Assembly (NCBI GenBank): GCA_000995135.1
Contig: LBWY01000017.1
Span: 1 to 36,507 of the forward strand
Direction: 5' to 3'
DNA from: Parcubacteria group bacterium GW2011_GWE2_39_37
Lineage (GTDB): Bacteria > Patescibacteriota > Patescibacteriia > Patescibacteriales > GWE2-39-37
Length of the DNA stretch: 36,507 bases
Part shown: piece after piece, positions 3,370-19,232 of the stretch
How positions within the stretch are numbered: position 1 is the stretch's first letter
Layout of the letters: each line of letters begins with the position of its first letter
The notes under the pieces: generated by a model
Databases searched by the model: none
Told to the model about the DNA's origin: nothing
The model's input: the letters and a program-made list of their open reading frames with translations, nothing else
Program-made: the position numbers and the translations under genes

Positions 3370-3546
3370 CCTCTGTCATCTCGAATCCCGTTAGGGTGAG
3401 AGATCTCGGGTAAATAATGGAATATATTATTGGGTAAAAGGTTTAAAAATATAATAATTAGAATTTAAGATGCTATTTCTTTAAAATTAGTTATTACTAA
3501 TTTCCGAGATCTCTCCTCATCTGCTGATTCGTCGAGATGACAGAGG
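3370..3546. repeat. REPIN/MITE-like element, family 1 copy A
   Basis: Left arm CCTCTGTCATCTCGA-ATCCCGTTAGGGTG-AGAGATCTCGG; reverse-complemented right arm CCTCTGTCATCTCGA-CGAATCAGCAGATGAGG-AGAGATCTCGG; AT-rich core. Confidence 0.85.
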
Positions 3547-3569: not shown

Positions 3570-4961
3570 ATGAAAAGACCAACTTATAAAATATACACCC
3601 TCGGTTGCAAGGTTAACCAATACGATTCAGAAAGTTTGAGCAGAAAGTTGACTTCTGCTGGATTTGTCGTGGCGGAAAACAATGCTGATTTAGCGATTGT
3701 AAACACTTGCACAGTTACTCATTCTGCGATTGCCAAGGATAAGAAAATGATTGAAAAAGCTAGGACAGAAAATACAAATGCGAAGATTGCAGTGGTCGGC
3801 TGTATGCCGGTTAACTATAAAAAAGAAGTTGAAGAGTTGAGCGTGGATTTTATTTACGGCACGAAAGATGCGGATAAGCTAATTGAAGAATTTATTTCTG
3901 TCATTCCCGAGCAGTCGGGAATCCAGTTTGAAGAGTGTAGGATGGATCCCCGCCTACGCGAGGATGACGACAAGGAGGTGGGTTCATGTGAGCTAACTGA
4001 AAATTCATACAAAACCGGCAAGTCCAGGTATTTTTTAAAAATCCAAGACGGTTGTCAGCAGTTCTGTTCTTATTGTATCATTCCATACAATCGTGGAAAG
4101 CTCACTAGTAGACCAGTTGAAGAAGTTCTAGCAGAGGTTGAAAAAATCGTTGCAGCGGGGTATAAGGAAATAATTTTATGCGGCATTCATTTGGGGTTGT
4201 ATGGGGTGGACTTTAGTCGCACAACGCGTAACGCACAACGCGTAACGAATCTAGTAGGTCTTTTAAAAGAACTAATCAAGATTGAAGGTTTAGAAAAAAT
4301 TCGCTTGAGTTCCATTGAAGTAACAGAGGTGAATGACGAATTAATTGACTTGATTAAAACTAACAGAAAAATTTGTCGGCATTTACATATCCCATTGCAA
4401 TCCGGTTGTGATAAGATTTTGAAATTGATGAACCGGCCTTACACAACCGAGTTTTTTGTGGAGCGGATTGAAAAATTAAGAACAGCCGTGCCCGAAATAG
4501 CGATTACCAATGATGTGATTGTCGGTTTTCCTGGAGAGACCGAAGGAGATTTTAATATCACTTTTGATTTTATAAAAAAAATAAATTTCAGCAAACTGCA
4601 CGTCTTTCCATTTTCCGCCCATGAGAAAACTCCTGCTTTTTCAATGCCAGATCAATTACCGACATCCATAAAAAAAAAGCGTGCAAAAATTCTTTCTGAA
4701 TACAGCTTGGAATTAGAAAAAAAATATAAACAACAATTTGTCGGTCAAGAACTTGAAGTAATAGTTGACGGACGCAGTCAAGGAAAAGTTCATAGTGGCC
4801 AGCATCAAGAAGGCATAGATTCTTTTCGCGGCCAGCCGCGAGAGAGCAAAGCTCTTTTTCGTGGGAAGACCGAATATTATTTTGATATTGAATTTAACTC
4901 CGATAAAAAATTAAAGGCAGGGGATTTGGTAAAAGTTAAAGGCTGGAAATTTCTTGAATAA
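3570..4961 (+). CDS. mtaB: tRNA threonylcarbamoyladenosine (t6A37) methylthiotransferase MtaB
   Basis: TLGCKVNQYDSE N-terminus, radical-SAM motif FLKIQDGCQQFCSYCIIPYNRG, MiaB/MtaB architecture with unusual linker insertions. Confidence 0.92.
   Translation: MKRPTYKIYTLGCKVNQYDSESLSRKLTSAGFVVAENNADLAIVNTCTVTHSAIAKDKKMIEKARTENTNAKIAVVGCMPVNYKKEVEELSVDFIYGTKDADKLIEEFISVIPEQSGIQFEECRMDPRLREDDDKEVGSCELTENSYKTGKSRYFLKIQDGCQQFCSYCIIPYNRGKLTSRPVEEVLAEVEKIVAAGYKEIILCGIHLGLYGVDFSRTTRNAQRVTNLVGLLKELIKIEGLEKIRLSSIEVTEVNDELIDLIKTNRKICRHLHIPLQSGCDKILKLMNRPYTTEFFVERIEKLRTAVPEIAITNDVIVGFPGETEGDFNITFDFIKKINFSKLHVFPFSAHEKTPAFSMPDQLPTSIKKKRAKILSEYSLELEKKYKQQFVGQELEVIVDGRSQGKVHSGQHQEGIDSFRGQPRESKALFRGKTEYYFDIEFNSDKKLKAGDLVKVKGWKFLE
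3900..3968. repeat. Palindromic repeat pair embedded in frame in mtaB
   Basis: GTCATTCCCGAGCAGTCGGGAATCCAG ... TGGATCCCCGCCTACGCGAGGATGAC; 69 nt (23 codons). Confidence 0.8.
4218..4245 (+). repeat. 14-nt tandem repeat in mtaB
   Basis: CGCACAACGCGTAA x2, perfect. Confidence 0.95.
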
Positions 4962-7430: not shown

Positions 7431-7535
7431 GTGTCATTCCGGATGGAGCAGAGCAGCGGAAGTCCGGAATCCAGAAAAATATTAAGCATAAACTTGATTG
7501 TAATTTCTGGATTATTGCTTTCGCAGGAATGACAC
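7431..7535. repeat. REPIN/MITE-like element, family 2
   Basis: Outer arms GTGTCATTCC/GGAATGACAC, inner AATCCAGAAA-type arms, nested ATTCCGGA...TCCGGAAT hairpin. Confidence 0.75.
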
Positions 7536-18786: not shown

Positions 18787-18812
18787 ATTATTCGGGGATC
18801 GTCTAATGGTAG
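18787..18812 (+). repeat. Partial 5' copy of tRNA-Gln (26-nt direct repeat)
   Basis: ATTATTCGGGGATCGTCTAATGGTAG, identical to 19121-19146 at the start of the intact tRNA-Gln. Confidence 0.95.
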
Positions 18813-18860
18813 TCGCCTCATCGGCGACCCGCCGGAGAGTCGGGGACAATAAATTTGTTT

Positions 18861-19117
18861 ATGTGGTATGTATACATATTACAGAGCATAAAAAATAAAA
18901 GGCTATATTGTGGTTATACTGATAATTTAAAAAGGAGATTTGAAGAGCATAATAATGGTGAGGGCGGAAAATTTACCCACGACAACAGACCCTTTAGCTG
19001 ATTTTTTATGAAGCATTCATAGAGAAGAAAGATGCTACTGTACAAGAGCTTTTTTATAAAACCGGGTATGGTCGGGAAGTACTTAAAGGTAAATTAAAAA
19101 ATTTTTTATCAAAATAA
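18861..19117 (+). pseudogene. Small GIY-YIG endonuclease with one frameshift near 18996
   Basis: MWYVYILQSIKNKRLYCGYTDNLKRRFEEHNNGEGGKFTHDNRPF then, one frame over, LIFYEAFIEKKDATVQELFYKTGYGREVLKGKLKNFLSK*. Confidence 0.85.
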
Positions 19118-19125
19118 AATATTAT

Positions 19126-19196
19126 TCGGGGATCGTCTAATGGTAGGACAGCTGGTTCTGGTCCAGTCAATCGGGGTTCGAATCCCTGTCCCCGAG
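19126..19196 (+). tRNA. tRNA-Gln (anticodon CUG)
   Basis: Acceptor TCGGGGA/TCCCCGA, anticodon arm GCTGG-TTCTGGT-CCAGT, T-loop TTCGAAT. Confidence 0.92.
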
Positions 19197-19232
19197 CATA
19201 AAAATAAAATACACCTGAGCGAAGCGATAGCG

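Follow-up and report, generated by a model that had tools for sequence, protein, structure and literature searches.

Closest described systems

The palindromic repeats that come closest to the one described here are the CGTC REPs, which at the time of the survey by Di Nocera, De Gregorio and Rocco (2013, PMC3733652) were known from five phyla, Patescibacteria not included, with A. lipoferum and S. meliloti among the species named. That survey assigns Neisseria dRS3 and Rickettsia RPE-6 to CGTC-1 and RPE-4 to CGTC-4, and describes intragenic CGTC inserts as often being dimers or groups that encode 20-30 residues. It found neither a dedicated transposase for these repeats nor a tyrosine transposase gene flanked by them, and left the mobilising enzyme open. 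The CGTC-1 REPs, including dRS3, share with the repeats in the mtaB gene considered here a T/CGTC tag, an 8-bp stem starting with AT, a 4-nt loop and a CCA tail, as well as an arrangement in head-head dimers that are mainly intergenic, some of them being intragenic and coding for 20-30 residues. Whereas these REPs have been described without a dedicated transposase, a GIY-YIG nuclease gene is their recurrent partner in the present data.

Several other systems show partial likeness. Rickettsia RPE-4 and RPE-6 are, like the mtaB insert, in-frame palindromic insertions in conserved proteins, but they come from a different phylum and the likeness is one of the mode of insertion, with the CGTC-1 equivalence of RPE-6 being taken from PMC3733652. 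The GTAG REPs and REPINs with RAYT (TnpA-REP) are also short palindromes in inverted pairs tied to one small enzyme; however, they combine a GTAG tag with a Y1 HUH transposase, as opposed to the TGTC/CGTC tags and GIY-YIG nuclease seen here. The mtaB repeats fall outside that group both by these tags and by the near absence of REPs from RAYT loci (see below). MITEs offer a parallel as non-autonomous, inverted-ended units arising through internal deletion of a gene-bearing element, but the present units end in REP hairpins, show no target duplication and have a partner other than a classical transposase. Finally, the UPF0213 proteins and GIY-YIG homing endonucleases belong to the same superfamily as the nuclease, the nearest solved structures being 1zg2 and 1ywl, but the REP-flanked nucleases form a distinct clade and the structural scores are weak.

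A head-head CGTC-1 dimer inserted in mtaB

The window, i.e., the whole stretch of 36,507 nucleotides that was analysed, contains on its forward strand the mtaB gene (tRNA t6A methylthiotransferase; 3570..4961), an open reading frame of 463 aa with the radical-SAM CxxxCxxC motif, which TIGR01579 recognizes as MtaB with a score of 404 bits (cut-off, 357). Within it, window positions 3900-3968 are taken up by a facing pair of hairpins, GTCATTCCCGAGCAGTCGGGAATCCAG and TGGATCCCCGCCTACGCGAGGATGAC, with 16 nt between them. The original prediction had pointed to an in-frame palindrome pair of 69 nt, or 23 codons, at this place, and the segment indeed corresponds exactly to V111-D133 of MtaB with both ends on codon boundaries; the peptide given for it had one D too many. 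The left REP (3900..3926, forward strand; GTCATTCCCGAGCAGTCGGGAATCCAG) consists of GTC, the hairpin ATTCCCGA-GCAG-TCGGGAAT and CCAG, is translated as VIPEQSGIQ, and forms a perfect 8-bp stem (8/8) closed by the 4-nt loop GCAG. It is followed by the 16-nt spacer (3927..3942, forward strand) and by the inverted right REP (3943..3968, reverse strand), a GCGAGGATGAC variant translated as (M)DPRLREDD, whose 8-bp stem pairs at 7/8 positions with one wobble around a 4-nt loop. Both stems begin with AT, the tags are TGTC on the left and CGTC on the right, within the CGTC/TGTC/CCTC range of CGTC-1, and the unpaired tails CCAG on the left and CCA on the right agree with the CCA tail of that family.

As read from the DNA, both halves are by stem, loop, tag and tail CGTC-1 REPs, and the insert is an already known kind of repeat in a new host group, the Patescibacteria. 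The left half fits ATTCCC-GAGCAGTC-GGGAAT, in accord with the form ATTCCC-N8-GGGAAT that the prediction had given for dRS3, itself a CGTC-1 repeat (PMC3733652), while the right half reads ATCCTC.. and lacks that core. The resemblance also drawn to Rickettsia palindromic elements holds in the sense that the insert works like them, being inserted in frame and missing in orthologs. As dRS3 and the RPEs both belong to the CGTC superfamily (PMC3733652), the two analogies are not rivals. On the outer sides, the left REP is flanked by the pyrimidine-rich tract ATTTATTTCT (3890..3899, forward strand) and the right one by CCTCCTTGTC (3969..3978, reverse strand, read inward), with pyrimidines at 15/18 positions of both sides together, as is generally the case at REP ends. 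The spacers of the other dimers of the genome measure mostly ~56-67 nt, against 16 nt in mtaB. Since the GCGAGGATGAC variant of the right REP is also present in the intergenic 117-nt dimers of this genome, the insert is a member of the same subfamily with its spacer shortened from ~60 to 16 nt.

At the protein level, Pfam locates UPF0004 at residues 6-95 and the radical SAM domain at 157-335, and the insert falls in the linker between the methylthiotransferase domain and the radical-SAM core, where the prediction had placed it. The alignment with relatives that it had proposed shows the peptide to be missing elsewhere: the central insert columns hold residues in only 1/29 MtaB proteins of related genomes, and the two genomes of the same family (G002 and G003) have an ordinary, short linker without the insert. 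MtaB is 51-52% identical to its relatives, aligned over the full length, inserts included. Judged by this comparison, a CGTC-1 REP dimer of the head-head type, 69 nt long, has inserted into mtaB, in the RPE-like manner of an in-frame insertion into a conserved protein that is missing from the orthologs. Its length in multiples of three, the lack of a stop codon and the position in a linker would explain how the dimer persisted as 23 extra residues of MtaB.

Further unusual segments occur in and around this gene. Positions 4218-4250 form another short in-frame extra segment relative to the relatives, a CGCACAACGCGTAACG repeat (SRTTRNAQRVTNL) with a similar segment in one related genome (G001), and positions 4788-4853 (in 4788-4871) add ~22 residues near the C terminus (VHSGQHQEGIDSFRGQPRESKAL) from hairpin-like DNA. 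No second copy of the C-terminal segment (in 4788-4871) was found in the genome, and it is therefore not called a repeat. The MtaB proteins of four relatives (L023, L024, L031 and L077) carry other odd in-frame segments (LPTGRQV, QIPRPRQAKRGGQ, FPPEADPSSRAGRQPW, TRPVKSGVAGARDSERFNG), which suggests that MtaB tolerates repeated in-frame insertions. Upstream of the gene lies a 167-nt element (3375-3541) with the ends GTCATCTCGA and TCGAGATGAC, strong internal hairpins and a GTCAT start, which may represent a sibling repeat family.

Copies in the genome and in relatives

The half-palindrome pattern GTCATTCC-N-GGAATCCAG occurs twice in the window as against 0 in 100 shuffles, and is not a product of chance. 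The search for other genomic copies that had been suggested for the element returned 26 exact-edged halves in the 970-kb genome by this pattern, with 0 for the reversed pattern, and 49 matches to a 117-nt dimer query, ten of them near full length. The total comes to ~50 unique REP halves and 10 head-head dimers, mostly intergenic, with only 4 halves falling inside ORFs of at least 120 aa; the high copy number, the mainly intergenic location and the head-head dimers are all as in CGTC-1. Both mtaB halves match dispersed copies of the genome at up to 96%. The intergenic element to which the insert had been likened is a second head-head dimer (7433..7535, no strand assigned), with a long loop in its left half and a degenerate right half; it belongs to the same superfamily and is the more degenerate of the two. 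Beyond this genome, the strict CGTC-1 pattern was found in 68/193 related genomes, the reversed control giving 0.

A GIY-YIG nuclease clade bracketed by the repeats

The original prediction did not see the link of the repeat family to a nuclease gene. In two relatives, perfect CGTC-1 pairs are spaced ~340-400 nt apart, each around a GIY-YIG ORF of ~98-100 aa. With the seeds excluded, the loci of related genomes have REPs on both sides in 11 cases, on one side in 8 and on neither in 5, and contain 50 halves in 20.5 kb near the gene versus 1 in 53.7 kb far from it. A further 80 loci were drawn from named genomes by the GIY-YIG protein alone; the 67 with a ranked phylum name cover 17 phyla. With the strict detector, head-head REPs are seen on both sides in 34 of these 80 loci and on one side in 17, and 127 halves lie in the 66 kb near the gene versus 25 in the 177 kb further out (reversed, 0). 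Additionally, exact inverted matches of at least 12 nt between the two flanks are present at 46/80 loci as opposed to 0/65 for windows further out.

The association tracks the nuclease clade. When unique proteins are classed by profile score, a REP lies within 200 nt of 83/100 clade members (at least 125 bits; 56 with REPs on both sides) versus 0/26 proteins outside the clade (below 60 bits), in a pool of two collections in which a few genomes may count twice under near-identical proteins. At the remaining 17/100 members the detector found no REP; this relaxed detector gave 339 halves versus 14 in reversed sequence. In the nuclease tree, many inner forks of which are weakly supported on account of the short protein, all REP-flanked rows fall within one clade of 127, none of the 28 rows outside it is flanked, and the flank label changes 22 times versus a mean of 46 when shuffled. 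At the level of genomes, at least five CGTC-1 copies are present in 17/37 with a strong nuclease hit versus 12/156 without one (Fisher p = 2e-7, with counts entered by hand and cut-offs picked after seeing the data), and CGTC-1 copies also abound in some genomes that lack a strong hit to the clade. The control MtaB loci have 0 REP halves in 108 kb. Around the 30 highest-ranking hits to PF01541 in the class there are likewise 0 in 90 kb, a null result that spoke against the GIY-YIG lead until the profile of the REP-bracketed clade was used. CGTC REPs and this GIY-YIG clade are thus associated.

An intact REP-GIY-YIG-REP copy lies on contig C15 of the host genome, and some of the scattered copies share its REP variant; nine of the ten GIY-YIG hits in this genome have no bracketing CGTC REPs. 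Searching plasmid records by protein recovered the nuclease, usually in the midst of CGTC-type REPs, from A. lipoferum, Aeromonas, Rhizobium, Shinella, S. meliloti and further sources. It is also encoded in two records of chromosomal size that are listed as N. gonorrhoeae plasmids; in the one examined it sits inside a dRS3-like array. The gene is surrounded by several dimers, and not by two single REPs, in Azospirillum and Neisseria. The nuclease keeps conserved GIY-YIG residues, with Y-x-G, R, H, E and N among those conserved across the clade, and the predicted fold is compact, with a mean pLDDT of 95. Foldseek gave no match to the predicted structure at E <= 0.001, the nearest being UPF0213 and, weakly, Slx1, and PADLOC assigned the nuclease to no defence family. 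A literature search, with preprints and most subscription papers outside its coverage, retrieved no link between GIY-YIG proteins and REPs, and as far as could be searched the REP/GIY-YIG element is undescribed.

Some GIY-YIG genes in other settings were also encountered. On a Planktothrix plasmid (L337), such a gene has a type IIL restriction enzyme on one side and DISARM drmA on the other, and repeated GTCATTCTGAG motifs lie next to it. One relative (G073; L341-L344) has four GIY-YIG copies of >400 nt, 84-92% mutually similar and without CGTC REPs, the ends of which may belong to another repeat family. In the window itself, a GIY-YIG pseudogene with two stops (18861-19022) lies between a 23-nt copy of the tRNA-Gln 5' end (18790) and a complete tRNA-Gln (19126-19197), an arrangement (18790-19197) suggestive of an insertion that duplicated a portion of the tRNA-Gln gene.

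The REP-bounded unit and its sites

The two REPs of a locus resemble each other: left and right arms differ by 0.83 mismatches as against 1.95 by chance, the lowest of 2000 shuffles being 1.62. In one genome (G049; L352-L354), three GIY-YIG genes are each bracketed by their own matched REP stem variant; scattered related REP variants are also present there. Three genomes have two copies each at unrelated sites, which are 80-91% identical from GTC to GAC, and the 40-nt flanks beyond the outer REP ends of these pairs have identities of 0.25-0.42 (one right flank was too short to compare on account of a contig end). In another genome (G148), one more copy has lost the middle of the gene while retaining the gene's two ends and the two REPs, and represents an internally deleted derivative. 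Hence, as this comparison of copies indicates, the unit bounded by the REPs is found at different sites and in an internally deleted form. No target-site duplication was detected at its ends (2.9% versus a null of 3.4%). The bases outside the REPs are, read inward, pyrimidine-rich, at 70% in the host genome and 60-61% elsewhere, falling to background by ~18 nt.

Proposed mechanism and alternatives

We consider it likely that a mobile element encoding a GIY-YIG nuclease has CGTC REPs as its termini, and that what sits in mtaB is a minimal non-autonomous copy of it. The element would measure ~390 nt and consist of a REP, the nuclease gene and an inverted REP, with the gene-less dimers being its non-autonomous derivatives. 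The nuclease would recognise the hairpin of its own REP and cut at the hairpin base, beside the Y|GTC boundary, whereupon the REP-bounded unit or its dimer would be copied into new sites rich in pyrimidines, with no duplication of the target. Members of the GIY-YIG superfamily hydrolyse DNA and have no known joining activity, so that the joining step would need host repair or another factor, host repair being the simplest guess. That the nuclease mobilises the REPs, where it cuts, how the unit is joined and that the mtaB copy was mobilised by it are all inferred. Against this reading stand the 17/100 clade members at which the detector found no REP, the nine GIY-YIG hits of the host genome without bracketing CGTC REPs, the CGTC-1-rich genomes that lack a strong clade hit, and the placement of the gene among several dimers in Azospirillum and Neisseria. 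A clade-specific GIY-YIG gene with matching REP ends in many phyla offers a concrete, testable candidate enzyme for CGTC REPs, including dRS3 and RPE-4/6. In a wider form, to which we lean no more than we lean against it, all CGTC REPs, dRS3 and RPE-4/RPE-6 included, would descend, as non-autonomous forms, from a single pan-bacterial class of elements whose only gene product is a ~95-residue GIY-YIG nuclease matched to its own REP hairpin and which has repeatedly written in-frame segments into conserved proteins.

The main rival, which we regard as rather unlikely, is that the gene is a homing endonuclease that landed in REP dimers spread by other means. GIY-YIG is a homing-endonuclease superfamily, the nuclease has a weak match to TIGR01453 (group I intron endonuclease), and homology ending at the REP ends would also be expected had the gene entered members of a repeated dimer family. 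However, the sequence between REP and gene in the element of the host genome, compared by eye with the spacers of the 117-nt dimers, matches at only a few bases. Further, the internally deleted derivative runs from gene-bearing to gene-less, the direction expected if the dimers derive from the element, and the three distinct matched REP variants in a single genome also speak against homing.

A spread of the REPs by RAYT/Y1 transposases, as is thought for GTAG REPs, is very improbable: Y1_Tnp (PF01797) genes are present in 41/60 related genomes, but only 1 REP half was found in 85 kb around 30 RAYT loci, on which ground RAYT was rejected as the mobiliser, and Di Nocera 2013 (PMC3733652) reports no CGTC-flanked tyrosine transposase gene. 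We see equally little chance that mtaB is decayed to a pseudogene or misassembled, so that the insert would have no consequence for the protein. The assembly is a MAG in 49 contigs and this mtaB copy has two further extra segments, but no stop interrupts the 463 codons, the motifs are conserved, the protein aligns over the full length at 51-52% identity with relatives, and the 69 nt are a multiple of three. The least credible reading takes the 23 residues to be an ancestral, functional portion of MtaB that resembles the repeats by accident at the DNA level. The linkers of the relatives do vary in length and composition, but the residues are missing in same-family relatives and the reading is refuted by the genome copies, which the halves match at up to 96%, the right half sharing a subfamily-specific variant.

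In-frame copies in other proteins

In-frame REP copies are not confined to MtaB. Among the 50 unique halves of the genome, in-frame copies are found in MtaB, a Wzy_C ligase (after the domain) and a methylpurine-DNA glycosylase (MPG), and among 45 halves of 30 related genomes in TruB, an ELP3-like radical SAM protein, FemAB, a UPF0020 methyltransferase and UvrC, the host proteins being confirmed by Pfam except for the ELP3-like protein, which is named from its sequence alone. One ORF made wholly of repeat (L151) was judged spurious. The in-frame REPs use several reading frames, giving VIPxxxGIQ, CHSRESGNP, SFPRRRES and DSRLRGND. Together with MPG, TruB, FemAB, UvrC and others, the mtaB case shows that protein-coding palindromes recur in small-genome bacteria far from Rickettsia, and annotators should beware of peptides like VIPAKAGIQ or HSRESGNP as translated REPs. 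The FemAB and UvrC proteins of two relatives (L150 and L163) contain several more repeat-like segments beside the CGTC REP (e.g., LTPTLSQGERG and NPPAPPFAKGGLGGI).
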